Program-made: the position numbers and the translations under genes
Part shown: one piece after another, positions 12,128 through 42,121 of the stretch
How positions within the stretch are numbered: the stretch's first letter is position 1
Layout: every line of letters begins with the position of its first letter
IMG/VR virus record: IMGVR_UViG_3300046170_000519
Span: 62,001 to 126,000 of that record
Reading direction: 5' to 3' (one strand)
Source of the DNA: a virus
DNA length: 64,000 bases
Notes under the pieces: model-generated
Seen by the model: only the letters and a program-made list of their open reading frames with translations
What the model was told of the DNA's origin: nothing
Databases searched by the model: none

Positions 12128-12295
12128 TTACTTCATAGTATATTTTATTATAGTAATTTGTTTTTCAACATCTTCAATCTCAAGTAATATTTTCTTTTTA
12201 TAAATTTTACCTTTATTGATGTATTGGAGTAATCTAGTAGTTAATTCCGATAATTCTTCAACACATTTTAAAAGATTTTGTTTTTTACTTTTCAT
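12128..12295 (-). CDS. short MazG-like helical protein
   Basis: 55 residues from ATG 12295: MKSKKQNLLKCVEELSELTTRLLQYINKGK and then LLEIEDVEKQITIIKYTMK. The EELSEL ... EIEDVE arrangement is the metal-binding EExxE...ExxD pattern of all-alpha NTP pyrophosphohydrolases (MazG/dUTPase-2 type), here as a minimal version. It overlaps the 3' end of the methyltransferase gene by 11 nt. A longer in-frame reading starting inside the methyltransferase gene is judged spurious. Confidence 0.55.
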   Translation of the reverse strand: MKSKKQNLLKCVEELSELTTRLLQYINKGKIYKKKILLEIEDVEKQITIIKYTMK

Positions 12296-13346
12296 TTTTT
12301 GGCAAAGACTGCAGTAATGATAGGCACATTTGAGGCAAGAAAATTTCGCCAATAACTTTTCGAATAAAAGAAGGTTTATAGTCATATGAAAATGAATTGC
12401 CGTTTTCAAAATGAGCAAATTTATCAAGATAATTTTCTGGTAATCCACATACGCATAGCAATTCTCGAATTGAAAGAACTCTAGGGTCAGAGGGGTGAAC
12501 ATTGTTCTGGCTTGAAATCGAACCATTGGTCATAGTAACTGTCGAAGCTGGCTTATCCCAATACATTCTTTTATAAGTTGTCATAAAGCCTTTTATTTTT
12601 CTACCATCTTTTTTGGGGTATTCAACTTTATTATTAAAAGCTGTTTGACCTTCAGGAGTTGCAGACATCCAGCGAACATGATTTGAGTTATGGTTTGGAG
12701 AAAAATGCCAAGGAAGATCTGATGCTTCACCATTACCCAGAGAAGGTAAGTGTCCAATTGCATCTCTGAGAGTCACACTTTTCTTAGAAAATTCTGGAGC
12801 TTTCCATTCTCCTGATTTTGATATCAAACAAATAGAGCGTTTTCGAGACTGAGGAATGCCAAAATTTTTTGAATCAAGAGTATAAAAAATTGCTTCCATT
12901 TCTTTTGGTATGGCTGATTTTATATAATCGGAAATTTTCACTACACAATTATTTCTATTGATATAGGTTTTTGGCATTTGTGGAACATTTTCAATTAACA
13001 TATATTTAGCATTAATTGAATTAAAAATTTCTAAAGCGTATACAATAAGAAGATTTCGTGAATCATTGGGGGTTTTAAGGGCGTTTGCCGCACTCATTCC
13101 TTGGCAAGGAGGGGTAGCAATAACCAAGTCGATTTTTTCTGAATGGTTTAGACATTGATTAACTAAATTAGATCGAATTTTATAATCGGCAATGTCTCCA
13201 CAAATACAAGAAGATTGTGGGTGAAGTTTTTTATATAAATCACAACGATTTTCTTCAATTTCATTAGAAAATAAAACTTTAAATTCAGATTTATTTAACA
13301 AGGCTTCACCAAAGCCAACATTAGAAAAAAGAGATAAAATATTCAA
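12285..13346 (-). CDS. C5 cytosine DNA methyltransferase
   Basis: About 353 residues; all core motifs are present: I ILSLFSNVGFGEALL, IV VIATPPCQGMSAAN with the catalytic Cys, VI IENVPQM, VIII FGIPQSRKRSICLI, a target-recognition region, IX/X RELLCVCGLPENY and RKVIGEIFLPQM. It would methylate cytosine in a specific site, for self-protection against host restriction or as an orphan modification enzyme. The start is uncertain: I choose TTG at 13346 so that motif I begins right after Met-Asn-Ile; the frame is open to TTG at 13376. A small nuclease gene lies two genes downstream. Confidence 0.88.
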   Translation of the reverse strand: MNILSLFSNVGFGEALLNKSEFKVLFSNEIEENRCDLYKKLHPQSSCICGDIADYKIRSNLVNQCLNHSEKIDLVIATPPCQGMSAANALKTPNDSRNLLIVYALEIFNSINAKYMLIENVPQMPKTYINRNNCVVKISDYIKSAIPKEMEAIFYTLDSKNFGIPQSRKRSICLISKSGEWKAPEFSKKSVTLRDAIGHLPSLGNGEASDLPWHFSPNHNSNHVRWMSATPEGQTAFNNKVEYPKKDGRKIKGFMTTYKRMYWDKPASTVTMTNGSISSQNNVHPSDPRVLSIRELLCVCGLPENYLDKFAHFENGNSFSYDYKPSFIRKVIGEIFLPQMCLSLLQSLPKNEK

Positions 13347-13379
13347 ACTCCACAAGTCTAACAAAAAAATAACCAAAAG

Positions 13380-16390: not shown

Positions 16391-17125
16391 GTGAAAATAT
16401 ATACTTATTTTGAAGATATAAATCATTCTGGACAAGAAAAATTGTTAGAACTTTGGAAAGAGAGTTGGCAAAGGCAGGGGTTCGAAGCTATAGTTCTAGG
16501 AGAAAAAGACGCGAAAAAAACGGAAGAATATCATCAGTTTTTAAAGCAAATGAAGTTTATATTCCAAAAAACCACAGGGAAAAAGTTGTCTAATTATGGA
16601 CTTAGTTGTTTTACAAGATGGTTAGCTTACAGTACGGTTCAAGATAAGGAAGAGAGGTTTTTTGTTTCAGATTATGATATAATCAACAGTGGAAGATGGA
16701 GGGTTGATCAACCAATTTCAAAAAAACTTCATTTTTTAGATGCTGATTGTCCTTGTATGGCATCTGGCACAGCAGAGCAATTCAAAAAAATTTCAGAAGC
16801 TTTTTTTGAAGTTACAATGAATAGGATTGAGCACTTAATTAAAATTGTTGATCATTATCATGACCAAGAGTTTTTTAAATTTAATTTTATGGAACATTTC
16901 AATTCAGAAGCTAAGCAACTTTGGAAAAAATATGATGCAAAATTTTCAAGAAATCCAAAAAGAGATGTGGATTTACTAAGACCAAAGGAATTTCAAACAT
17001 GCAGGGCTTTTCATATATCTCACTATTGTGTAGCAACAATTATAGAGCAAGAGCCAGAAAAATATAAAAATAAAAAATTAGACGAAGCAAGAGTTGAAAT
17101 AATTGAAAATAAATTTTTAAAATGA
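16391..17125 (+). CDS. putative GT-A glycosyltransferase
   Basis: 244 residues with a GTG start (MKIYTYFEDINHSGQEKLLELWKESWQRQGFEAIVLG). LSCFTRWLAYSTVQDKEERFFVSDYDIINSG places a DYD metal-type motif near residue 94, as in capsular polysaccharide-type transferases. The remainder carries no known motif. GTGTAA is 8 nt upstream of the start. It overlaps the next gene by ATGA, so it belongs with the sulfotransferase genes downstream. Family assignment is tentative. Confidence 0.5.
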   Translation: MKIYTYFEDINHSGQEKLLELWKESWQRQGFEAIVLGEKDAKKTEEYHQFLKQMKFIFQKTTGKKLSNYGLSCFTRWLAYSTVQDKEERFFVSDYDIINSGRWRVDQPISKKLHFLDADCPCMASGTAEQFKKISEAFFEVTMNRIEHLIKIVDHYHDQEFFKFNFMEHFNSEAKQLWKKYDAKFSRNPKRDVDLLRPKEFQTCRAFHISHYCVATIIEQEPEKYKNKKLDEARVEIIENKFLK

Positions 17126-17787
17126 ATTTTTCAAAAAAACAAATAGAACTTAAAAAAAATATTGAGTTGGGGAAGATAAAAATTAAAGTTAAACCTCTTT
17201 TCATTCATATCCCTAAAGCTGCAGGTTCATGGTTCCATAAAATCGTAGAGGTTATAAATGACGATGTACCTGAAGGTTATAATTTTCATAAAGAAGTTTC
17301 TTTTTATGACAAGTTTTACAGGAAAGAATGTTTTGTATTTTCTATGGTTAGGAATCCATATGATAGATTGGTCAGCGCTCATCAATATTTAACATCGGGC
17401 ATAACTCATAAACATGAAATTCACTTAAACGAAGGTGATGCTGAAATTGGAGCAACTTTATCGAAAGATTTTAAGCGATTCGTTAAAAAGGATTTAGATA
17501 AAATGATGGAGGTATTACACTTTAGGCCGATGGTTGAGTGGCTAGATCGAAAAATAGATTTTATAGGAAAAGTAGAGACATATGATACTGATTTCGATTT
17601 TATAAGCAAAAAAATAGGCTTGCCAAAAAAAGCCTCACAAAAAGTCAATAGAAGAAGTAAGAGACTCGAAAGGGGAGAGAAATTTAAACACTATACCGAA
17701 TACTACGATGATGAAACTCGTCAAATTGTCGCGCAACGATTTGCAAAAGACATTGAGTATTTTGGATATGAATTTGGCGAACACTAA
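17122..17787 (+). CDS. sulfotransferase family 2-like protein
   Basis: 221 residues. PLFIHIPKAAGSWFHKIVE (about 29-47) is the PAPS 5'-phosphosulfate loop, and FSMVRNPYDRLVSAHQYL (about 73-90) the 3'-phosphate motif with its conserved Arg and Ser. The C terminus, HYTEYYDDETRQIVAQRFAKDIEYFGYEFGE, is a family tail shared with the gene at 18678. It would transfer sulfate from PAPS to a sugar hydroxyl. It is coupled by overlaps to both neighbours. Confidence 0.83.
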   Translation: MNFSKKQIELKKNIELGKIKIKVKPLFIHIPKAAGSWFHKIVEVINDDVPEGYNFHKEVSFYDKFYRKECFVFSMVRNPYDRLVSAHQYLTSGITHKHEIHLNEGDAEIGATLSKDFKRFVKKDLDKMMEVLHFRPMVEWLDRKIDFIGKVETYDTDFDFISKKIGLPKKASQKVNRRSKRLERGEKFKHYTEYYDDETRQIVAQRFAKDIEYFGYEFGEH

Positions 17788-18677: not shown

Positions 18678-19268
18678 ATGATATGTTTAAAAAATAAATT
18701 TATTTTTATTCACATCCCTAAGTGTTGCGGATCCAGTATTGAAAAAACTTTAGCGGATGACAGTTGCATTTTTAAGAGTGGGACTTGGCCTCATAATTTA
18801 AAGTTAAAATACCCATTAAATCATTGCACTTTAGACGACATTGAAGAATCCAAAGTTCTTCATCCGAATTTTGATAAATTCTACTCCTTTACTTTTGTAA
18901 GAAATCCTTTTGACCGTTTAGTGTCTGAATATTTTTACTTGAAAAACAGATTAAAATTGAGCGATGACATTAAAAAAGAATTAATATATTTGGCGGAAAG
19001 AAGTTTAAATGGAGTAATGGGCAATCATTGTGTGAGTCAATATAAATTTATTAATAATAAAATTAATTTTATAGGTAAATTTGAAAACCTCCAGCAAGAC
19101 TTCAACATTGTGTGCGACGAAATTGGAATTCCCCAACAACAACTTCTACATATAAACAAAACAAAACACAAACACTACACCGAATACTACAATGATATGA
19201 CTCGTGAGATTGTCGCAAAACGATACGCACGAGACATCGAGTATTTCGGCTATAAATTTGGAGAATAA
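18678..19268 (+). CDS. sulfotransferase family 2-like protein
   Basis: 196 residues. FIFIHIPKCCGSSIEKTL (about 8-25) is the PAPS phosphosulfate loop; FTFVRNPFDRLVSEYFYLK (about 73-91) the 3'-phosphate motif. The tail HYTEYYNDMTREIVAKRYARDIEYFGYKFGE is nearly the same as that of the 17122 gene, so the two are paralogues. A short gap of 66 nt separates it from the fucosyltransferase-like gene, containing AAGTGTATTTATATAAAA, a possible internal promoter. Confidence 0.83.
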   Translation: MICLKNKFIFIHIPKCCGSSIEKTLADDSCIFKSGTWPHNLKLKYPLNHCTLDDIEESKVLHPNFDKFYSFTFVRNPFDRLVSEYFYLKNRLKLSDDIKKELIYLAERSLNGVMGNHCVSQYKFINNKINFIGKFENLQQDFNIVCDEIGIPQQQLLHINKTKHKHYTEYYNDMTREIVAKRYARDIEYFGYKFGE

Positions 19269-19279
19269 ATAATTACAAG

Positions 19280-19888
19280 ATGAATGAGAATTTTACGTTT
19301 ATACATATAGGGAAGTGTGGAGGATCTACGATTCGCTCCTTGCTAAAAAAATATAATTTTAATTTTAATGTAATTCATGTTTATGAGAGAGAAGAATATA
19401 AATCTTGCAAAAAATATCTCATTGCATTAAGAAACCCAGTAGAAAGATTTGTGTCCGCTTTTTATTGGAGAAAGTATCTCGCGTCAACTAGCCAAAAAAA
19501 TAGTTTTCGTGGAGAATATGAATTTTTTCAAAAATACCCAACGATAGAAAGCCTAATTCAGGACGATATTACAATACTTAAAAAACAATATGTTCATCAT
19601 TTAAAAGAAGATATACATTATTATCTTGGAGATTTCTTCAATCAATGCAACCCTAGCAATATAATTGGTATTGTTTGCACGAAAAATTTAAACAAAGATA
19701 TTGAAAATATTTTTGATATTAAAGTCGAAGGATTACATGAAAAAAATAATAGCAAAAGAAAAAAAGAACTTAAAGAAGAATATCGTGAATTTTTAAAAAA
19801 ATATCTACACAAAGATTATTTGATAATAGAAAAATTAAACAACTTAAAACTACTTTCGATGGAACAATATGAAATACTTTCAAAATAA
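19280..19888 (+). CDS. divergent sulfotransferase-like protein
   Basis: 202 residues. FTFIHIGKCGGSTIRSLLKKY (about 5-25) is a PAPS phosphosulfate loop, and YLIALRNPVERFVSAFYWRKY (about 46-66) the 3'-phosphate motif. The middle and C terminus differ from the two neighbouring sulfotransferases: the HYTEYY tail is absent and replaced by KYLHKDYLIIEKLNNLKLL. Immediately after its stop is a decayed copy of that tail (19889-19943), so it appears to have been placed into an older tandem array. Acceptor unknown. Confidence 0.75.
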   Translation: MNENFTFIHIGKCGGSTIRSLLKKYNFNFNVIHVYEREEYKSCKKYLIALRNPVERFVSAFYWRKYLASTSQKNSFRGEYEFFQKYPTIESLIQDDITILKKQYVHHLKEDIHYYLGDFFNQCNPSNIIGIVCTKNLNKDIENIFDIKVEGLHEKNNSKRKKELKEEYREFLKKYLHKDYLIIEKLNNLKLLSMEQYEILSK

Positions 19889-22514: not shown

Positions 22515-23025
22515 GATGTTTTAAGCGTTGTACAACTCTTCGTTTCCAGACAAAATATTGACTGATATTTTTTAAATTCATCAACTTTATTATTTGATCT
22601 TGAGATAAACCTGAGTCAAAATAATTTAAAAACTCTCTCTCTCTCTTTGATAAGACACTTTCTTTCGCCTTCTTTAAGAAAGAGAGTCTCTGTTCTTTAA
22701 TTTCTTTATCTAAAAGGTTTAGGTAAGGATCATGTTTGATGCAAGTAAAATCATCGCAATAATCTACAGAATCTTCTTTTGATCTTTTTATTTTTGTAAG
22801 ATGCTTTAAAATTTGGAATCTCGCTATATTAAACGCCCAACCTTTTAAGCTTCCACCCTCCTTGTAGAGGTGAGATTTTTGAAGTAATATCACAAGACAA
22901 TCCTGGACAATGTCTTCAGCATCATTTATAGAGTATATTCTACCCCTAACATAAGAAAGTAGGGAGGGGTATAGAGATTGAATTCTATAAGGTAAATTTG
23001 AATTTCTATAATTTAAACTAGCCAT
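22501..23025 (-). CDS. ECF-type sigma-70 family factor
   Basis: 174 residues. Region 2 is seen in RIQSLYPSLLSYVRGRIYSINDAEDIVQDCLVILLQKSHLYKEGGSLKGWAFNIARFQILKHLTK (about 12-76), including the DAEDIVQD and GWAFNIARF boxes. A short region 4 helix-turn-helix is KAKESVLSKREREFLNYFDSGLSQDQIIKLMNLKNISQYFVWKRRVVQRLK. It should direct host RNA polymerase to phage promoters. It overlaps the Nudix gene upstream. A second sigma-like protein is encoded at 33787-34842. Confidence 0.82.
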   Translation of the reverse strand: MASLNYRNSNLPYRIQSLYPSLLSYVRGRIYSINDAEDIVQDCLVILLQKSHLYKEGGSLKGWAFNIARFQILKHLTKIKRSKEDSVDYCDDFTCIKHDPYLNLLDKEIKEQRLSFLKKAKESVLSKREREFLNYFDSGLSQDQIIKLMNLKNISQYFVWKRRVVQRLKHHAKT

Positions 23026-23503
23026 TTCTTAAATCATCAAGATTGTTTAAAATAGGTAATAAATAACCTGTAGATAAAAGATGGCTGGGTAGGGAATCAG
23101 ATAAAACCCATTCAGAGGAATGAGAATCTAGCTTAATTTTTGAACTATCGACAAGAATTCTAGAAGATAAGATTAAGGAGACCGTATGCGTATTACAATC
23201 TAAATCAAAACAGCTTTTGTTAAAACTACCCTCAAAAAACCCCACAAACTGCCACTCAATAGAGTTAACTGTGAGACCAAGTTCTTCGAGGCATTTTCTT
23301 GACGCTGCTTCCATAATTCTCTCATTTTTAAAAACTCTACCTCCTGGAGTCATTAACTCACCTTTTAAGGGTTCATCAGCTCGCCGAACTAATATAAATT
23401 TTTTAGAATTTTTATCCAAAAGTATTAAGTCAACTGTAAGTATTGGAATATTTTCTATTATTTTTTTGTAAAAAGACTCTTCTATTAACTCTGTTTTTAT
23501 CAT
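23018..23503 (-). CDS. Nudix hydrolase, GDP-mannose mannosyl hydrolase-like
   Basis: 161 residues. The Nudix box is GGRVFKNERIMEAASRKCLEELGL (about 53-76), but the catalytic RE pair reads RK. GDP-mannose mannosyl hydrolases (Gmm/WcaH) are the known Nudix members with a modified box, and the flanking ILTVDLILLDKNSKKFILVRRADEPLKGELMTPGG resembles their N terminus. It would hydrolyse GDP-mannose or GDP-glucose and tune donor pools for the glycosyltransferases here. Inference from the box; other NDP-sugars are possible. Confidence 0.72.
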   Translation of the reverse strand: MIKTELIEESFYKKIIENIPILTVDLILLDKNSKKFILVRRADEPLKGELMTPGGRVFKNERIMEAASRKCLEELGLTVNSIEWQFVGFFEGSFNKSCFDLDCNTHTVSLILSSRILVDSSKIKLDSHSSEWVLSDSLPSHLLSTGYLLPILNNLDDLRNG

Positions 23504-25604: not shown

Positions 25605-26795
25605 TTAAATTTTTGAGATAATTGTTTTTGCGATGCTAAGACATGAAGTTGCGGCAGGAGAAGGGGCATTGTAAACGTTTACAATATAATTAGAAGAGTC
25701 TATGACAAAATCATCAATTAGATTCCCAGACGAATCTAAAGCTTGAGCTCTAATCCCAGAAGGAAAAGGAACGATATCTTTACAATCTATTTCTGGAACT
25801 AGTCTTTTTAGAGCTTTAACAAAAGCTTTTTTATTATAAGATCTATACATCTCTTCTAAACCCATTCTCCAGTGTTTTGAAGCCATTTTTAGAAAACCTG
25901 GAAAAGTAATTGAAGAAAAGGTTTCAGCAAGATTAAAGTCTAATTTTCCATAAGCTTCTTTACCAAAAGCTAGGACTGCATTTGGCCCACACTCAACAGA
26001 TCTGTCTAGCCCTCTTGTGAAATGAACGCCTAAAAAGGGGAACTGCGGATTCGGAGTTGGGTAGATTAAATTTTTACATAAATGTTGCGAGTCTTTTTTT
26101 AATTTAAAATACTCGCCTTTAAATGGAATAATTTTAAATTTTTTTTTGCCCCCTGACAGCCTAGCAATATCGTCAGAATATAATCCTGCGCAATTTATAA
26201 CTTTATTACATATGATGTGATTGCTATCAGAGCTTACTAAAACTTTATTATTTTTAATTTTTTTTATTTTTTTAACTAAGAAATTAAAATAAATTGAACC
26301 ATTTAACTGCCGAAAAAGATCTGAAAATTTTTGACAAACATCTGTATAATTTATAATCCCACACTCTTTTACATGAATAGCTTCCACTCCGTTAGCGTGA
26401 GGCTCTATCTCAAGAAGTCGACTTTTGGAGATTAGCTCACATTCAACACCATTTGAAACACCTCGTTCATATAGAGCTTGCAATCTTGGAGTTTCCTGGT
26501 GATTTGTTGCAACAATAACTTTACCACAAATTTCAAAATTAATATCATTATCTAAACAAAACTTTTCAAGACTTTTCTTGCCAGATCTGCAATTTAAAGC
26601 TTTTTGAGATCCTGGTTTGTAGTAAATCCCCGAATGAATAACTCCAGAATTTCTCCCTGTCTGATGCTTGCAAATATTGCTTTCTTTTTCTAGAAGAATT
26701 ATTTTAGATTTTGGAAATTTTTGAGATAAAAGGTAAGCTGTTGAGAAACCTACGATTCCACCCCCAATAATACAGTAATCAAATTCATCTCTCAT
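25605..26795 (-). CDS. lhgO: L-2-hydroxyglutarate oxidase-like FAD enzyme
   Basis: 396 residues, the usual LhgO length. The FAD-binding Rossmann motif is FDYCIIGGGIVGFSTAYLLSQ (about 5-25), followed by LLEKESNICKHQTGRNSGVIHSGIYYKPGSQKALNCRSG, a block diagnostic of LhgO/YgaF, then PFLGVHFTRGLDRSVECGPNAVLAFGKEAYG and a C-terminal GIRAQALDSSGNLIDDFVI. It oxidises L-2-hydroxyglutarate to 2-oxoglutarate and delivers electrons to the membrane. It would be an auxiliary metabolic gene in a phage. It follows a 76-residue acidic gene with a 6-nt gap. Confidence 0.88.
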   Translation of the reverse strand: MRDEFDYCIIGGGIVGFSTAYLLSQKFPKSKIILLEKESNICKHQTGRNSGVIHSGIYYKPGSQKALNCRSGKKSLEKFCLDNDINFEICGKVIVATNHQETPRLQALYERGVSNGVECELISKSRLLEIEPHANGVEAIHVKECGIINYTDVCQKFSDLFRQLNGSIYFNFLVKKIKKIKNNKVLVSSDSNHIICNKVINCAGLYSDDIARLSGGKKKFKIIPFKGEYFKLKKDSQHLCKNLIYPTPNPQFPFLGVHFTRGLDRSVECGPNAVLAFGKEAYGKLDFNLAETFSSITFPGFLKMASKHWRMGLEEMYRSYNKKAFVKALKRLVPEIDCKDIVPFPSGIRAQALDSSGNLIDDFVIDSSNYIVNVYNAPSPAATSCLSIAKTIISKI

Positions 26796-31720: not shown

Positions 31721-31885
31721 TTATTTTCTACTAAATTTTAATTTTAATTCTTCAATGATTTTTATTTTATCATTGGTATTGAGTTGTGAGTAAGATTTTT
31801 TAAATCTCCTTAATAAACGTTTTTGTTCTGGTAAACCTTCATAACCCATAATATCTTTTATCTGCTTAAGTTTTGATTTATTCAT
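31721..31885 (-). CDS. unknown 54-residue basic protein
   Basis: MNKSKLKQIKDIMGYEGL to IIEELKLKFSRK, 54 residues, Lys/Arg-rich and helical. Its ATG overlaps the stop of the GMP reductase-like gene (ATGA), a typical coupling in this genome. Function unknown. Confidence 0.6.
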   Translation of the reverse strand: MNKSKLKQIKDIMGYEGLPEQKRLLRRFKKSYSQLNTNDKIKIIEELKLKFSRK

Positions 31886-32886
31886 ACTTCAATATAATCT
31901 GTATTATAAAGAGAAGTTAAATTATTTCCACCTGAATAACTTATTGAGCTTTGCAAGTCTTGCATTATTTCTTTTAATTTTTCTTCATAGCTCATTTCAT
32001 TGGAAGGAATGTTCGTAAGTTTTCCTTCAATGTTGTTGTTGTGGCCTTTGTTTTGAAAACTGGCAGAACCAAAATAAGCTTTATAAGGAGCGTTATTAAT
32101 GGTAGTGAAGCTTGCAGGACTATCTATACAAGATGCGAATAAGCCTCCAGCCATAACCATGTTAGCTCCAGCAACCAAAGCTTTAGCAATGTCTCCATTA
32201 TGCTTAATTCCGCCATCCGCAATGATTGGAACTTTTTGAGGTATGTCAAAGTCTTCAGAAGTAGATGCATTTGAAATCATAAAACCATTTTCTTTACTAA
32301 AGCTAGTGTTGGAGCATTTTTTAACACAGGAAAACATGGGCATTGTAAAGCCTGTTTTATCCTTCGTTGTGCATGGAGATCCTTGGCCTATGCCAACTTT
32401 TACAGCATCAGCTCCCCAAGCTGAAAGATCAATGACGGCTTCAGGTACTGCAACATTGCCAGCGATAATTTTTGTTTCAGGTAGGTGCTTTTTAATCCAC
32501 TCAATCATTACCTTCATTCGCTTACAATGACCGTGAGCAATATCAATTGTTAAGCAATCAACTCGATGACCTCTCTTGCCAATTTCTTGAATTGCAATTT
32601 TGTCTTTAATTTTTGCTCCTACGCTAAACGAAATAAATTTCCAATCTTGAGCATTAGCAATATCTTCAGTTAGATCACGATCAAATCTATGCATGATATA
32701 AAAATAAAGATTTTCACTCATCCACTTTGCTATATCGATATTGACAACAGACTTCATGTTAGCAGGGATAATGGGTAAAATAAATTTTTGCCCTAGAAAT
32801 TCAACAGATGTATCACAATCTATTCTACTATGAACTTCATTGTATCGAGGCACTAAAGCTACATCTGAATATTTCAAATATTTCAT
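31882..32886 (-). CDS. GMP reductase / IMPDH-family protein without CBS domains
   Basis: 334 residues. The TIM-barrel core is complete: FILPIIPANMKSVV near residue 34, VDCLTIDIAHGHCKRMKVMIEWIKKHLPETKIIAGNVAVPEA (about 109-150), the catalytic loop VGIGQGSPCTTKDKTG with its Cys (about 165-180), and VPIIADGGIKHNGDIAKALVAGANMVMAGGLFA (about 218-250), the phosphate-binding site. CBS domains are absent and the length fits GuaC, which converts GMP to IMP with NADPH. An IMP dehydrogenase lacking CBS is the alternative. The neighbouring deoxyribosyltransferase-like gene points to purine recycling. Confidence 0.85.
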   Translation of the reverse strand: MKYLKYSDVALVPRYNEVHSRIDCDTSVEFLGQKFILPIIPANMKSVVNIDIAKWMSENLYFYIMHRFDRDLTEDIANAQDWKFISFSVGAKIKDKIAIQEIGKRGHRVDCLTIDIAHGHCKRMKVMIEWIKKHLPETKIIAGNVAVPEAVIDLSAWGADAVKVGIGQGSPCTTKDKTGFTMPMFSCVKKCSNTSFSKENGFMISNASTSEDFDIPQKVPIIADGGIKHNGDIAKALVAGANMVMAGGLFASCIDSPASFTTINNAPYKAYFGSASFQNKGHNNNIEGKLTNIPSNEMSYEEKLKEIMQDLQSSISYSGGNNLTSLYNTDYIEV

Positions 32887-33195: not shown

Positions 33196-33735
33196 TTATC
33201 TATAATCCTTTCTTAATAATCTCCAGCGATCTGAATCAATTGGTTTACTGCCATTATCTATAGCATACAACATTTCTATAACTTCGTCAAGACTATTGTA
33301 AATATATTTATGAGGCAACATTCCTAGCATCCATAAAGGAGTTTTAGCCTTGCCCCCTTCCATGCTGATAAATACAGGTTTCTTTTCTCTCACAGCGGTA
33401 ACAATTTCTTCTGCACTACCCCAGCTTGCAACATCTGGAACCAAGTGAGCGATGATAAAATCACTACGATCAACTAAATTTAGGTCATAAGCTCGAACAG
33501 TTTTCATTTTTTCGGTGACCCGATCATACTGTTTGGTCTTCATCCAAGTTTCCATTTCTTGTCGAGACGCTTCATCTTCTTCAACATCTTTTATGAATGG
33601 CTTTTCATAAGGATTAAAGCAAGTAATCTCAAGAGGAGTAAGTTTATCAGTAACTTCTTTTCTCCAATCCCTGCCGCTGAGATATTGCATATGACCAACT
33701 AAATATGTTCGAGTTTTATATAAAAGATTTTTCAT
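33196..33735 (-). CDS. nucleoside 2-deoxyribosyltransferase-like protein
   Basis: 179 residues. TYLVGHMQYLSGRDWRKEVTDKL (about 10-32) and LNLVDRSDFIIAHLVPDVASWGSAEEIVTAVREKKPVFIS (about 85-124) match the nucleoside deoxyribosyltransferase-like fold: an N-terminal strand with a G-x-x-x-x motif, then the SDFIIA.....SxGSAxEI block with Glu at the nucleophile-like position. Such proteins swap bases on deoxyribose or cleave N-glycosidic bonds. It is downstream of an AGTGGACTATAA box. Confidence 0.7.
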   Translation of the reverse strand: MKNLLYKTRTYLVGHMQYLSGRDWRKEVTDKLTPLEITCFNPYEKPFIKDVEEDEASRQEMETWMKTKQYDRVTEKMKTVRAYDLNLVDRSDFIIAHLVPDVASWGSAEEIVTAVREKKPVFISMEGGKAKTPLWMLGMLPHKYIYNSLDEVIEMLYAIDNGSKPIDSDRWRLLRKDYR

Positions 33736-36164: not shown

Positions 36165-36974
36165 ATGAAAACAAAAAGAAAAATATTAATAATGGGATTA
36201 CCTGGATCAGGCAAAACGACATTGGCAGAAATGCTAGTAAGTAAATTAGGAGCAGCATGGTTTAATGCTGATGCTGTGAGACAGGATATATATTCCGAGT
36301 TGGGGTTTAATTACGATGATAGAATTAAGCACGCCGAGAGGATGGGGAAATTATGTGACTGGGCTAAAATAGGTGGAGGATACGTAGTAGCAGACTTCGT
36401 ATGTCCTGTGCAGGAAGCTCGTAAAGCCTTTAATGCAGATTTCACTATATGGGTTGATAGAATTCAAGAGGGAAGATATGAAGACACAAATAAAATGTTT
36501 GAAAAACCTATGAATTATGACATCAGGTTGATTGACGGAACTCCTGAAGAATGGACTACTCAAGTTTTAAATAAATTAGAAGAAACAGAAAAATGGAACA
36601 ATCAAGCTCCTACAGCATTGTTAATTGGAAGATATCAACCTTTTCATGTAGGGCATAAAACTCTAGTGAAAGAAGCTATTGACCGTACAGGTCAATGCTG
36701 CATTGCTTTAAGAGATGTAGGAGGCATAGACGAAAAAAATCCTTATAATTTTGAAGAAGTTAAAGCAGAAATAATGTCCGCCTGTATAGAATTTGGAGAT
36801 AAAATTAAAGTTGTCGAGCTTCCAAATATCACTGATGTATTTTATGGTAGGGGAGTTGGATATAATATAGAACAGCTGGAATTAAGTAAAGAAATGCAAG
36901 CTATATCAGCGACAAGGATAAGAGCTGGGGAAATTAGTCAAGACGGTAAACTCACAGGGAAGCGACCTGAATAA
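36165..36974 (+). CDS. APS kinase-like / HxGH nucleotidyltransferase fusion
   Basis: 269 residues. N-terminal domain (about 1-145): Walker A GLPGSGKTTLAEML, then WFNADAVRQDIYSELGFNYDDRIKHAERMGKLCDWAKIGGGYVVADFVCP, which follows the adenylylsulfate kinase pattern (DADxVR...LGFxxxDRIxxxER...DxGGxVVxxFVxP). C-terminal domain (about 150-269): LIGRYQPFHVGHKTLVKEAI with the HxGH motif and ISATRIRAGEI near the end, as in NMN adenylyltransferase-type enzymes. It could form PAPS from APS and activate a second substrate. Because the same protein pairs both activities, PAPS synthesis with a small sulfurylase-like half, or NAD-type chemistry, are both open. Confidence 0.72.
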   Translation: MKTKRKILIMGLPGSGKTTLAEMLVSKLGAAWFNADAVRQDIYSELGFNYDDRIKHAERMGKLCDWAKIGGGYVVADFVCPVQEARKAFNADFTIWVDRIQEGRYEDTNKMFEKPMNYDIRLIDGTPEEWTTQVLNKLEETEKWNNQAPTALLIGRYQPFHVGHKTLVKEAIDRTGQCCIALRDVGGIDEKNPYNFEEVKAEIMSACIEFGDKIKVVELPNITDVFYGRGVGYNIEQLELSKEMQAISATRIRAGEISQDGKLTGKRPE

Positions 36975-37321
36975 TGAAAAAGTATAAAACTTTTTTCTGT
37001 GATATAGATGGTACAATATTCAAATACAGAAAATTCGAAAAATATCAAACATCTAAGGCTGAAGTAATAGAGTCTACAAAAGAATATTTAATCAAAGCTC
37101 AAGAAGAAGGGCATATGATAATTCTTACAACGGCTAGACCAGAGTATTTAAGAGCTCACACAGAAAAAGAATTACAAGAAAATGAAATTCCCTATAGTAA
37201 ATTAATTATGGAGATAGAGAGAGGACCTAGATATTTGATTAATGATATGGATCCAGATAAACCTGGCAAAAGAGCTATTGGCATAAATCTGATTAGAGAT
37301 CAAGGAATCACTAAAAAATGA
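36974..37321 (+). CDS. small HAD-family phosphatase-like protein
   Basis: 115 residues. FFCDIDGTIFKYR is HAD motif I (DxDGT), IILTTARPEYLR motif II (T at TTARP), and YLINDMDP the C-terminal acidic motif (DMD). The cap domain is absent, giving one of the shortest HAD folds (capsular-biosynthesis type). It is coupled to both neighbours, and probably dephosphorylates a pathway product such as a sugar or nucleoside phosphate. Confidence 0.75.
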   Translation: MKKYKTFFCDIDGTIFKYRKFEKYQTSKAEVIESTKEYLIKAQEEGHMIILTTARPEYLRAHTEKELQENEIPYSKLIMEIERGPRYLINDMDPDKPGKRAIGINLIRDQGITKK

Positions 37322-37830
37322 AATTAAATATTCAATCAGAACAATTTCCAAATGTATTTTACGGAATCATTGAAATACCAAAAGAATCAAATGTAAAGTG
37401 TGAACTAAATGAAGGCTTTAACATGATTGAGTTTGATAGAGAGTTGAGCAACTCAATGATATATCCTGGGAATTATGGATTTATACCTTCAACGCTGGCT
37501 GAAGATGGGGATCCTGTGGATATAGTAATGATTGATAGTGATCCACATATTGAGGCTGGAACTTTGGTTAAACTAAAACCTTTAGGAATACTAAAAATGA
37601 TGGATTGCGGATTTATTGATAATAAAATATTAACAACAACAAGCAAAGATAAAAGCATTAATGATATAACAGATGTTTACGAAAAATTTTTAGATAAGAC
37701 TAAAGACTTTTTCGCAAATTATAAAAACCTAGATAATCAAAAAGTTGTGATAGGAGGGTGGAAAGGCAGAGAAGAAGCTCTTGGGTATTTAAAAGATAAG
37801 ATTAAGCCTAAGACAAAATTTCTAAAATAG
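37318..37830 (+). CDS. ppa: inorganic pyrophosphatase (type I)
   Basis: 170 residues, normal for bacterial Ppa. YPGNYGFIPSTLAEDGDPVDIVMID (about 49-73) carries the substrate and metal site with the classic DGDPVD motif, followed by IKEAG-equivalent LGILKMMDCGFIDNKI and a C-terminal FANYKNLDNQKVVIGGW with WKG. It hydrolyses PPi to drive PPi-releasing reactions, which fits the nucleotidyltransferase domain two genes upstream. ATG at 37318 overlaps the HAD stop (ATGA). It converges on the DUF1501 gene, with overlapping 3' ends. Confidence 0.92.
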   Translation: MKLNIQSEQFPNVFYGIIEIPKESNVKCELNEGFNMIEFDRELSNSMIYPGNYGFIPSTLAEDGDPVDIVMIDSDPHIEAGTLVKLKPLGILKMMDCGFIDNKILTTTSKDKSINDITDVYEKFLDKTKDFFANYKNLDNQKVVIGGWKGREEALGYLKDKIKPKTKFLK

Positions 37831-39088
37831 GCTCTCCTTTATGAGCGACCTGGAAAGGTCTTCCAGATGGAGAATAATGAATGTCATTTATGGAAAGACC
37901 TAAAGCATACGCAATTGTCGCATTTAAGTCTTCGGGTTTAACTGGATTCACATCAACTTCCATGCCTTTTTCATCGCTCTGACCATAAATTGTCCCACCT
38001 TTTATAGCTCCTCCAGCAAAAAAAGCTGAAAAAGCTTTAGGCCAGTGATCTCTACCATCCCTTGGGTTAATTTTTGGAGTACGACCAAACTCAGATGTTA
38101 AAACGACTAATGTGTCATTCAATAAACCTCGAACTTCAAGGTCAAAAAGTAGAGCCCCTAACGCCTTATCAATATCAACACAATTTGCAGCAACACGTTC
38201 AAAGTTATTATCATGAGTGTCCCAACCTCCACGGGTAACTTCAACGTAACGCACTTTATTTTCGATCAACCTTCTGGCTAATAAACACCCTTGCCCGAAA
38301 TTGCTTTCACCATACAATTCAACCATAACTTCTGGTTCAGCAGAAATATCAAAAGCTTTTAAGTCATCACTCCGCATGAGTTTTACGGCATCTTTATATA
38401 AATCGGTATATGCACGAATTTTTTTTTGATTGTATCTTTCGCTAAATACAGCATTTAATTGTTCAGCCGTTTTTATTCTATCGTTAAATCGTGAGGCATC
38501 CAAATAATCAGCCATTGAGCTGTTAGCTAACCCTGCCTTAGGATTTCTTATAGGCAAAGCTCCGTAACGAGATTCTAAAAAGCCAGCTCCTCCTCCGCCT
38601 CCACCGATCTTTACATTAGTAGGGATAGTTCTATTTATTGAACCAGAAAGCTTGGAGACCCAACTTCCGAAAGTAGGATGTACAATTGTTCCACGTTTTT
38701 GATAGCTCGTATGCATTAAATAACTAGCTTGTTCATGAGCTCCTTGATTGCTAGTTACAGAGCGAACAATAGCCGCATTATGCATATGCTTCGCAACCGT
38801 AGGTAAATTCTCTGAGAGAAAAACATCATCAACAGTTGTTTTAATAGATTGAACTGGGCCTTGAACATCAGGACTTTGAGGTTTTGGGTCGAAAGTATCA
38901 AGGTGCGACATTGCTCCAGCCATGTTTAAATAGATGACATGACGGGCTTTTGCGGGGCGAGAGCCTGGGGTTAAGGCATAGGAATTGTCGTGAATATAAG
39001 ACCCAACCAATGGCATTAACCCAACTCCTAAATAAGACTTGGCAGCTCTAGCAATAAATTCTCTTCTGTGTATTTCGTTATTTTTCAT
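37808..39088 (-). CDS. DUF1501 family Tat-exported protein
   Basis: 426 residues. The N terminus IHRREFIARAAKSYLGVGLMPLVGS is a twin-arginine signal (RREFIA) typical of DUF1501. Core blocks are VIYLNMAGAMSHLDTFDPKPQ (about 51-71), YVEVTRGGWDTHDNNFERVAANCVDIDKALGALLFDLEVRGLLNDTLVVLTSEFGRTPKINPRDGRDHWPKAFSAFFAGG (about 278-357), which include the GWDTH and SEFGRTP...GRDHWP motifs. Such proteins are abundant in Planctomycetota and Verrucomicrobiota and relate to the alkaline phosphatase/sulfatase fold. The gene is visibly less AT-rich than its neighbours and starts 8 nt after the tmRNA 3' end, both signs of capture from a host. Confidence 0.9.
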   Translation of the reverse strand: MKNNEIHRREFIARAAKSYLGVGLMPLVGSYIHDNSYALTPGSRPAKARHVIYLNMAGAMSHLDTFDPKPQSPDVQGPVQSIKTTVDDVFLSENLPTVAKHMHNAAIVRSVTSNQGAHEQASYLMHTSYQKRGTIVHPTFGSWVSKLSGSINRTIPTNVKIGGGGGGAGFLESRYGALPIRNPKAGLANSSMADYLDASRFNDRIKTAEQLNAVFSERYNQKKIRAYTDLYKDAVKLMRSDDLKAFDISAEPEVMVELYGESNFGQGCLLARRLIENKVRYVEVTRGGWDTHDNNFERVAANCVDIDKALGALLFDLEVRGLLNDTLVVLTSEFGRTPKINPRDGRDHWPKAFSAFFAGGAIKGGTIYGQSDEKGMEVDVNPVKPEDLNATIAYALGLSINDIHYSPSGRPFQVAHKGEPILEILS

Positions 39089-39655: not shown

Positions 39656-42121
39656 TTATGAAGAGAAGTTTACTTCCCCATTTTCATATCTAAAATGTAT
39701 ATTTGATTTCGATTTTATTTTTTTTGCTAGTATTGATTCAGCCACAGGAGTTTCTATATGAGATTGGAATAATCTTTCAATAGGTCTAGCTCCAAGAGAA
39801 ATGTTAGAAAGCTCATCTAGAAAAAAATTAACTAAAGAGTTTTCAAGGAAAATTTTAACTTTGAAGTTATTTTTTGCCATTTTTTTATTCAAATTTGTGA
39901 GATGCTGATTAATTATTCTTTTATAATCTTCATTTGAGAAATCTGAGAAGAAAATAATTTCATCTAATCTGTTAATAAACTCAGGAGAAAAGAAAGATTT
40001 AGCTTTATCAATAACTTTATCTCGTACTATATCTAATTTAGCATCATGATTTTGAAAACCAATATGAGATCCAGAACTTGAACTCATAATTTCACTACCT
40101 ATATTACTCGTTAAAATAATTAAACAATTAGAAAAATCAGCCTGCCTTCCGAAATTATCAAATATTTTCCCCTCATCAAGAATAGATAGCAAACTTTTAA
40201 AGACTTCGGGGTGAGCTTTTTCTACTTCATCAAACAAAATCACACTATAAGGATTCCGACGAACTGAATCGATAAATTTACTACCTTCATCGTAACCAAC
40301 ATAGCCTGGAGAAGATCCAGTAATTTTTGAAACACTGGCTGCCTCACTAAATTCGCCCATGTCCAGCCTGATTAAATTATTTTCACCGCCATAAATGATT
40401 TTAGAAATGATTTTAGCAGTTAAAGTTTTTCCTGTCCCAGTTTTACCCGTTAATAAAAAACAGCCTATAGGTTTTGCTGGATTAGATAGCCCACAGGTAG
40501 ATCTAACTAATGCTCTATAAATAGAATCTAAAGCTTCATCCTGCCCTACAATCTCTTTTTTGAGTTTAGATTTTAAATTCAAAACCTTTTCATCTAAAGA
40601 TAAAGAAATAGAGCTAATCGGTAAGCCTGTTTTTTCAGAGACTAGACGTTCGATATCTTGAGCATTAATGTGAATTTTTTGTTTAGCAATATCTTTCTGC
40701 CAAGAGTCTAAAAGGTTTTGATATTCAATGAAGAGATTATCTATTTTTTCTCCAATAACACCCTTTTTCTTAGAGCAAGACTCTTGAAAATCTTCGTCAA
40801 TTAAATTTTCTAATTTAGATTCAAGATTAATGAGATTCTCTGGTTTTCTATAAAACTTAACTTTAGCCTTAGCTCCAGCTTCATCTATTAAATCAATAGC
40901 TTTATCTGGCAAAAATCTATCATTTAAAAAACGAATACTTAAATCGACAGCTTTTTTAAGAGAGTTTTTTCTATACAAAACCTTATGAAAAGATTCGTAT
41001 TCAGGAGTCAAGCATTCTAAAATTTTAAAACAATCTTCAGGGGAAGGCTCATTTACATACAAAGGTTGAAATCTTCTAGATAACGCTGGATCTCTTTCAA
41101 TGCTTTTTTTAAATTCAGACATTGTGGTTGCTCCAATACAAGAAATGTCACGCCTAGAAAGAAGAGGCTTTAGGATATTAGCCGCATCTAAACCTCCTTC
41201 TGCGCCCCCTGCTCCAATAAGAGTATGTATTTCATCAATAAATAATATGTTATTTGTTCCTACAAAATATTTATCCAAAAGTTTTTTAAAACGTTCTTCG
41301 AATTGTCCTCTATACTTAGTTCCTGAAATTAAATGGTTCAAATTTAAAGAAAAAATAGTTTTTGAACTAAGGTCATTGGGAACTTTTTTTTGAACAATTT
41401 GTTGCGACAAAGCTTCGATTAAAGCTGTTTTGCCGACACCAGCCTCACCTAAAAGAATAGGATTGTTTTTTTGCCTTCTTGATAAAATTTCAGTCAATGA
41501 TTGTATATCACTTGATCTGCAAACAACTTTATCAAAAGCTCCTGAAGCTGCTAAATCATTAAAATTAATTAAAAATTCAGGATTGTTTTTTACAGTTTTT
41601 GTTTCTGTGGGAATGGGAGCATTTTTAGGATTTAGATGCACTTCTTTAGCTTTTAGAAACTTTTTGACATCATCATATTTATGAATAACTTCACCCTCTA
41701 ATATTGTTAAAATATTTTTAGCAAGTTCTTTGGAGTTAATTCCGAAAGAATCCAAGAAGTTTGAAACATCTCGATCTCGAAATAAGCAAACTAAAACATG
41801 CTCTATTCCTACATAATCATGGATGTAAGCTTCTGCAAGCACCACAGACTCTCTAAGAATTTTTTTAAAAGATTTGGAGTAAGTTAATTTATCTATAGAA
41901 AAAGATTTGCTTTCAGACTTTAAGTTTAGAATTTGATCTATATTCATGGAGGAAAGTTCTCCTGATATATTCATTAACTGAAAGATGCTATGTTGAATTT
42001 TAGAAACTCCATACAATAAATGCAAGGGCTCAATGAATTCATGTTCTAAATCAACAGCAAGCCTTTTTGCTATTTTTATAGATTGTTGAACTCTTGGAGT
42101 AAAGTTTGGTAAAATTTCCAT
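39656..42121 (-). CDS. ClpA/ClpC-like AAA+ unfoldase
   Basis: 821 residues with two AAA+ modules and an N-domain (FTPRVQQSIKIAKRLAVDLEHEFIEPLHLL). D1: Walker A GEAGVGKTALIEAL, Walker B NILFIDEIHTLIGAGGAEG, then a short ClpC-type linker with UVR-like spacing (LINLESKLENLIDEDFQ). D2: Walker A GKTGTGKTLTAKII, Walker B VILFDEVEKAHPEVF, sensor LTSNIGSEIM. Between D2 motifs is SHIGFQNHD, at the position of the ClpP-docking loop (IGL/IGF). It should work with a host ClpP. Its ATG overlaps the polymerase stop (TAATG), so it is transcribed with replication genes. Confidence 0.88.
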   Translation of the reverse strand: MEILPNFTPRVQQSIKIAKRLAVDLEHEFIEPLHLLYGVSKIQHSIFQLMNISGELSSMNIDQILNLKSESKSFSIDKLTYSKSFKKILRESVVLAEAYIHDYVGIEHVLVCLFRDRDVSNFLDSFGINSKELAKNILTILEGEVIHKYDDVKKFLKAKEVHLNPKNAPIPTETKTVKNNPEFLINFNDLAASGAFDKVVCRSSDIQSLTEILSRRQKNNPILLGEAGVGKTALIEALSQQIVQKKVPNDLSSKTIFSLNLNHLISGTKYRGQFEERFKKLLDKYFVGTNNILFIDEIHTLIGAGGAEGGLDAANILKPLLSRRDISCIGATTMSEFKKSIERDPALSRRFQPLYVNEPSPEDCFKILECLTPEYESFHKVLYRKNSLKKAVDLSIRFLNDRFLPDKAIDLIDEAGAKAKVKFYRKPENLINLESKLENLIDEDFQESCSKKKGVIGEKIDNLFIEYQNLLDSWQKDIAKQKIHINAQDIERLVSEKTGLPISSISLSLDEKVLNLKSKLKKEIVGQDEALDSIYRALVRSTCGLSNPAKPIGCFLLTGKTGTGKTLTAKIISKIIYGGENNLIRLDMGEFSEAASVSKITGSSPGYVGYDEGSKFIDSVRRNPYSVILFDEVEKAHPEVFKSLLSILDEGKIFDNFGRQADFSNCLIILTSNIGSEIMSSSSGSHIGFQNHDAKLDIVRDKVIDKAKSFFSPEFINRLDEIIFFSDFSNEDYKRIINQHLTNLNKKMAKNNFKVKIFLENSLVNFFLDELSNISLGARPIERLFQSHIETPVAESILAKKIKSKSNIHFRYENGEVNFSS

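Follow-up and report, generated by a model that had tools for sequence, protein, structure and literature searches.

The DNA analysed here, which we call the window, is a stretch of 64,000 nucleotides corresponding to positions 62001-126000 of the 205,857 bp (~206 kb) IMG/VR virus record IMGVR_UViG_3300046170_000519, and its source is a large uncultured virus. An earlier note on this DNA had described three overlapping plus-strand genes in the window, which the ORF coordinates and the junctions themselves confirm: the TAA of gene 1 and the ATG of gene 2 have one base in common (AATAATG), and the overlap between genes 2 and 3 is ATGA. The features considered below are as follows.

36165-36974, plus strand: gene 1, kinase-nucleotidyltransferase (NTase) fusion, an ORF of 269 aa
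36165..36593, plus strand: kinase domain, an APS-kinase-like P-loop domain, N-terminal in the fusion (PF01583, 9.7e-11)
36600..36974, plus strand: compact HxGH NTase domain, C-terminal in the fusion, proposed sulfate adenylyltransferase (PF01467)
36974-37321, plus strand: gene 2, HAD-superfamily phosphatase of 115 aa, proposed pAp 3'-phosphatase (PF08282, HAD_PNKP)
37318-37830, plus strand: gene 3, family I inorganic pyrophosphatase of 170 aa (PF00719, 4.5e-43)
17122-17787, plus strand: sulfotransferase (Sulfotransfer_2), proposed PAPS user (PF03567, 2.3e-16)
18678-19268, plus strand: sulfotransferase (Sulfotransfer_2), proposed PAPS user (PF03567, 7.4e-17)
19280-19888, plus strand: divergent sulfotransferase-like gene (HMM of viral Sulfotransfer_2 proteins, 4.3e-10; without a Pfam match)

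The identities that had been assigned to the three products, an APS-kinase-like domain fused to an HxGH domain, a HAD phosphatase and a pyrophosphatase, were borne out by PF01583, PF01467, PF08282 and PF00719, respectively. The claim that sulfotransferases are encoded elsewhere in the window also held, with PF03567 matches to two genes and a weaker assignment for the third, and one further sulfotransferase-like gene is present on the virus record outside the window. Within gene 1, the PF01583 (APS_kinase) match covers residues 7-90 and the PF01467 (CTP_transf_like) match (2e-5) starts from residue 153. The PHROG family phrog_10255 covers nearly all of gene 1 (7.8e-52), but its label, 'kinase', carries no function, and the NTase half and the operon are undescribed there. 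In gene 3 the residues for metal and PPi were found by inspection (DGDPVD, MMDCGFIDNK and NYK).

By sequence and fold, and by the substrate residues compared below, the kinase half resembles APS kinases. Its profile matches in the PDB have APS kinases on top, and a Foldseek search with a model of the full fusion (pLDDT 87) returned APS kinases as nearly all of the 50 matches listed, many of them with APS bound. The APS-binding residues, which the earlier note had singled out for a check, compare as follows: in the numbering of the P. chrysogenum APS kinase (Arg66, Phe75, Arg80, Asn83 and the ISP loop), equivalents of Arg66, Phe75 and Arg80 occur in 83/83 fused kinases, with Gln or His at the position of Asn83, and 60/60 of the stand-alone kinases described below keep Arg66, an aromatic residue at 75 (Tyr), Arg80 and Asn83. 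In these stand-alone kinases the APS_kinase match spans the entire protein (1e-16 to 1e-17), and fused and stand-alone kinases alike exceed the PF01583 gathering score. Both groups miss the curated cut-off of the apsK equivalog TIGR00455 (36 to 66 bits versus 138.7), and the kinase is therefore a diverged member of the APS kinases. We infer that APS is its substrate.

The earlier note had named two candidates for the HxGH half, sulfate adenylation and a NadM-like reaction belonging to another nucleotide pathway, with a close relationship to NMN adenylyltransferases as the outcome that would speak against sulfate. That relationship is what we found. By profile the nearest families are the NadM and NadM-Nudix NMN adenylyltransferases (NMNAT), followed by NadR and, also after NMNAT, PPAT, and by Foldseek the nearest structures are NadM-type NMNAT and then phosphopantetheine adenylyltransferase. 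ATP sulfurylase is absent among the profile and fold matches listed, its QxRNPxHxxH and GRDHAG motifs are absent from the alignments of the fusion family, and the window protein has no match to PF01747, for which one relative gave a weak match (0.0034) below the cut-off. Profile, motif and fold thus rule out membership of the ATP sulfurylase family, and a Pfam comparison showed that the domains of the fusion and the operon also differ from the GTPase and PP-loop subunits CysN and CysD.

With NadM and NadM-Nudix the NTase shares a GRFQPxHxGH core, an Asn-Pro-aromatic motif and a C-terminal S-A/G-T-x-x-R motif. The domain of the window protein reads GRYQPFHVGH ... YGRGVGY ... SATRIR. However, it differs from NadM in being fused to an APS-kinase-like domain, in having little NAD-related context and in lacking the NxxW (NxxLW) segment, which holds nicotinamide in NadM structures. 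Throughout the NTase family the place of NxxW is taken by a short PNI...YGR(D/G)VGY stretch, whereas the NadM of phage DLP6 has NNQLW. The NTase scores 23.5 bits against the NadM equivalog TIGR01527 (cut-off 181) and the fusion 18 bits against the NadR model TIGR01526 (cut-off 341). NadR, like the fusion, carries an NTase and a P-loop kinase in one chain, but its domain order is the opposite one and the kinase of the fusion is of the APS-kinase type. Because the NTase is NMNAT-like and yet has no NxxLW, its substrate cannot be read from family membership; the substrate that we propose is sulfate.

Fusions of this kind are numerous in uncultured viruses. Viral contigs hold 38 close relatives, with 70-87% identity over most of the sequence, and a profile-style search of viral contigs gave at least 481 fusion relatives, 80 of which were fetched, while the full fusion occurs in only five of 50,697 cultured-phage records. 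In an alignment of 83 homologues of gene 1, 32 columns do not vary, and the lysine of Walker A and the histidines of HxGH are among them, so the match of the fusion to its families is not due to chance. Walker A, H161xxH164, Arg156, Gln158, Arg183, Asn221, Arg229, Ser248, Thr250 and Arg253 are invariant in 83/83 fused proteins, the catalytic NTase motifs among them. The two halves are encoded by separate, overlapping genes in one locus (L039) and also in a metagenome-assembled genome (MAG) of SAR86, and nearly all of the more than 130 loci have them either fused or strictly side by side. We found no description of such a system in the literature searched (open-licence papers).

We considered which genes accompany the fusion. 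Sulfotransferase is the commonest Pfam family among its direct upstream neighbours (7/83), and among direct downstream neighbours DUF2061 is the commonest (10/86), with Sulfotransfer_2 in two more. Distant fusion relatives have a sulfotransferase gene directly adjacent on the same strand, and some fusion relatives overlap sulfotransferase or DUF2061 genes. Sulfotransferases were found in 20/26 fusion-positive versus 12/34 fusion-negative records (p 0.0014), and a second comparison gave 17/18 versus 7/12 (p 0.026); of the fusion-positive records of at least 100 kb, 18/18 had one. A UvsX scan for a larger control set yielded few long contigs by itself, and the set was widened with an alignment and the NDT gene. 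The correlation is modest and confounded by phylogeny, because sulfotransferases are common in fusion-negative relatives too. We therefore rejected sulfotransferase presence as proof: it is significant, yet of little weight alone when such genes occur throughout the clade. Only 8/36 non-jumbo fusion-bearing records, which are fragments, have a Sulfotransfer_3 gene.

DUF2061, a small predicted membrane protein whose gene usually closes the viral operon, follows the NTase in ~45 marine loci. A survey of Pseudomonadota showed it joined to CysN, at the C-terminal end, in two genomes (L180 and L181), and in a gammaproteobacterium (L139) it follows an ATP sulfurylase-APS kinase fusion. At ~60 other bacterial DUF2061 loci, the 1.5-2 kb of flanking sequence examined in either direction showed no sulfate-activation partner. 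DUF2061 probably has a role in sulfate activation.

Two further enzymes are enriched in records with the fusion. In jumbo-clade records of at least 60 kb, which are fragments and for which the p values ignore phylogeny, CysQ occurs in 7/26 fusion-positive records versus 0/34 records without a full-length fusion (p 0.0017; three pass the curated cut-off), and pyrophosphatase in 17/26 versus 9/34 (p 0.0028), one of the fusion-negative records (G504) holding a fusion remnant. A CysQ-type 3'(2'),5'-bisphosphate nucleotidase lies directly after the fusion in one locus (L027; TIGR01331 6.1e-65, slightly below the cut-off), and pyrophosphatase is a direct neighbour of the fusion in five records, which show at least three different arrangements. 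Cultured-phage records gave 5 matches for CysQ and 10 for pyrophosphatase, several of them in records that look like bacterial DNA. CysQ can also act on pAp from CoA metabolism. Separately, CysQ is located beside pyrophosphatase in L382 and L386, and in L382 also beside CTP_transf-like genes, which suggests that these two loci are sulfated-glycan gene sets.

The exact order fusion-HAD-pyrophosphatase recurs in just two other records (L002 and L019), and we rejected the three-gene operon as a conserved unit, although its parts recur in other arrangements. The HAD gene belongs to one of these. Its product matches PF08282 (3.2e-7), HAD_PNKP (1.2e-5) and, in the PDB, Pnkp1 (6e-4), and it carries the motifs DIDGT, TTARP and NDMDP; all three HAD motifs are present in 77/77 viral relatives. 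When viral contigs were searched with the window HAD, 80 loci were obtained, 58 of which carry a stand-alone APS-kinase relative together with a stand-alone NTase of the type seen in the fusion. Kinase, HAD and NTase are contiguous on one strand and in that order in 56 of the 58, DUF2061 is also present in 45, and a sulfotransferase lies upstream of the kinase in 13; many of the loci are near-identical copies, so there are fewer independent cases than these counts. HAD is thus the second gene of an operon that is widespread in marine viruses and runs APS kinase, HAD, NTase, DUF2061, sometimes with a sulfotransferase upstream. That it is a regular member of such kinase/NTase operons in marine viruses is a point absent from the earlier note. 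Given this linkage, the window operon is best regarded as a version of this operon that has been fused and rearranged, with pyrophosphatase where DUF2061 would be.

Among cultured phages the stand-alone kinase had one weak match only, and for the stand-alone NTase the only matches were to the five fusion phages and to three NadM proteins; the kinase and HAD of this operon are essentially unknown from cultured phages. A test for CysQ in three operon records that carry HAD (G000, G001 and G527) found it in none. Because PNKP-type relatives act on 3'-phosphates and these three records are without CysQ, we hypothesize that HAD most likely removes the 3'-phosphate of pAp, which would be the job of CysQ in related viruses.

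A bacterial locus bears on the source of PAPS. In the SAR86 MAG (JAKUUM010000006, L041), the kinase and then the NTase come after a sulfotransferase gene (PF13469, 1.2e-45) in a plainly bacterial neighbourhood, with no HAD next to the NTase or kinase. A search of ~1.5 Mb of the MAG revealed no homologue of CysC, CysD, ATP sulfurylase, CysH, CysI or CysJ; the MAG may be incomplete, and at least one contig possibly lies outside the ~1.5 Mb searched. A CysN search gave 26-32% identity only, the level of other translation-type GTPases, and CysQ and NadD are present. The SAR86 sulfotransferase needs PAPS, for which the kinase and NTase are the only candidate source seen. A D-2-hydroxyacid dehydrogenase-like gene (L041:6810-7766) comes after the set and may belong to the pathway of the sulfated product.

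We propose the following pathway. The NTase would convert ATP and sulfate to APS and PPi, and the pyrophosphatase would hydrolyze PPi and so pull the unfavourable APS-forming step. The kinase would then phosphorylate the 3'-OH of APS with ATP, giving PAPS, which the virus's own sulfotransferases could spend in decorating glycans or other targets with release of pAp, and CysQ in related viruses, or HAD, would take the 3'-phosphate off pAp. We put the probability at roughly 0.6 that the operon is such a compact PAPS synthetase module, composed of an NMNAT-derived sulfate adenylyltransferase and an APS-kinase relative. This reading stays the best one because NxxW is missing and the neighbours are sulfotransferases, DUF2061, CysQ and pyrophosphatase. 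Against it, the NTase is NMNAT-like by both profile and fold, and the order kinase-HAD-NTase also fits an ADP-sugar route. Of the compact PAPS synthase suggested in the earlier note, then, the kinase half stands and the pyrophosphatase and sulfotransferase logic fits, but the HxGH half is no relative of ATP sulfurylase.

To our knowledge, the enzymes credited with biological sulfate activation are two, ATP sulfurylase and CysND, which are not related to each other. We consider the odds somewhat better than even that the NTase is a third kind of sulfate adenylyltransferase, with an NMNAT fold, unrelated to CysND and outside the ATP sulfurylase family. Working with an APS-kinase relative, and helped by pyrophosphatase, CysQ or HAD, it would supply PAPS to the sulfotransferases of many uncultured viruses from marine and fresh waters, and to those of at least one SAR86 bacterium whose canonical sulfate-activation genes were not detectable.

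An alternative is NAD salvage, in which the kinase would phosphorylate nicotinamide riboside and the NTase would adenylate NMN, as a reversed-order analogue of NadR with the pyrophosphatase clearing PPi. The NadM-like part of the earlier note's second suggestion does hold, in that the closest profiles (NadM and NadM-Nudix, then NadR) and the closest fold (NadM) are of this type. In the Casjensviridae phages Bhz60 and AhaSv, moreover, a NADAR gene overlaps the start of the fusion (L044:5559-6735; L045:5571-6753), and a scan of 50 of the 56.5 kb of Casjensviridae sequence revealed no sulfotransferase. This context differs from that in the marine viruses, and it may mean that the enzyme has another use there or that the genes form a defence island. 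Phage NAD synthesis is also well documented (PMC9503650, PMC7824862). However, the kinase is APS-kinase-like and unlike that of NadR, the NTase lacks the NxxLW of phage NadM, and the commonest neighbour families, sulfotransferases and DUF2061, point to PAPS over NAD. Neither NAMPT nor NADAR was found in 20 virus records of the window's clade, and in the whole search (25 records) NAMPT occurred only in DLP6 and NADAR in the two Casjensviridae phages and one bacterial MAG. The isolate phage DLP6 encodes the fusion and a sulfotransferase together with its own NadM-Nudix and NadV, so the fusion does not make up for a lack of NMN adenylyltransferase there; SAR86 likewise has NadD. Canonical NAD salvage was rejected on the absence of NAMPT and NADAR from the window's clade and on the NadM that DLP6 already has, and we regard the salvage explanation in general as unlikely.

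We also think it improbable that the operon serves an ADP-heptose-like route to a sugar or polyol, where the kinase would make a bisphosphate, HAD would trim it and the NTase would adenylate the product. The marine-virus gene order copies ADP-heptose logic, sugar-nucleotide genes are often neighbours, and the HAD gene also matches a PHROG labelled phosphoheptose isomerase, but the kinase has the substrate residues of APS kinases and not those of sugar kinases. Heptose kinases, moreover, are PfkB-type enzymes. Such a route would also leave DUF2061, CysQ and the HAD-less sulfotransferase-kinase-NTase set of SAR86 unexplained.

In Campylobacter phosphoramidate transfer, an APS-kinase homologue, cytidine diphosphoramidate kinase, phosphorylates CDP-amidate. 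By analogy, the viral enzymes might place some other group on a 3'-phosphorylated nucleotide, from which the apparent sulfotransferases would transfer that group; the kinase's name appears in PMC6429109. An NTase unlike any known sulfurylase would suit this idea, to which we assign a low probability: the adjacent genes belong to ordinary PAPS sulfotransferase families, DUF2061 is tied to CysN and ATP sulfurylase, both sulfate-specific, and GRxQPxHxGH NTases are adenylyltransferases whereas the Campylobacter enzyme takes CTP. Least likely is that the kinase boosts PAPS from host-made APS while the NTase has an unrelated job and no new sulfurylase exists, for although the substrates of the two domains need no coupling and many hosts make APS, the domains stay fused or strictly adjacent in nearly all loci and the SAR86 MAG seems to be without another APS source.

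The proposed PAPS synthetase module can be compared with systems that make the same product. PAPS synthetases (human PAPSS1/2 and the bacterial and fungal ATP sulfurylase-APS kinase fusions) resemble the viral fusion in joining an APS-kinase fold to an NTase of the HxGH superfamily in a two-domain protein; human PAPSS also has the kinase first, and the reactions proposed for the fusion are identical. The viral NTase, by contrast, is NMNAT-like, has ~115 aa and is without QxRNPxHxxH and GRDHAG, and the whole fusion has 269 aa against roughly 550-630 aa. CysNDC would share its product with the operon, and a DUF2061 partner through the CysN-DUF2061 fusions, but CysN is a GTPase and CysD a PP-loop enzyme to which the NTase fold is unrelated, and neither was found in the SAR86 MAG searched (~1.5 Mb).

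If sulfate is the substrate, a very small third enzyme would be present in many viruses and the annotation of sulfate activation would change. It would also explain how sulfotransferases are supplied in phages and streamlined bacteria without CysND, Sat or CysC, and it would point to the production of sulfated surfaces or products by viruses in the course of infection. Should the substrate not be sulfate, there is still a concrete function to test for a four-gene operon that is conserved across dozens of contigs from uncultured viruses.

Other genes in the window, all on the minus strand, were observed alongside the operon. A DUF1501 protein gene (37808-39088, 5.5e-110) is convergent with the operon and overlaps its end by 23 bp; it also neighbours the fusion elsewhere, with 91-95% identity in at least six viral loci (L002, L004 and L006-L009) and 71% in L015. 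A nucleoside 2-deoxyribosyltransferase-like protein (33196-33735) is 80-94% conserved across jumbo viruses and encoded near the fusion in 17 loci, and relatives of an IMP dehydrogenase / GMP reductase domain protein (31882-32886) recur close to the fusion in other viruses. The virus also encodes a full ClpA/ClpB-type ATPase (39656-42121), an FAD-dependent oxidoreductase of the DAO family (25605-26795), a Nudix protein (23018-23503) and a C5-cytosine methylase (12285-13376).
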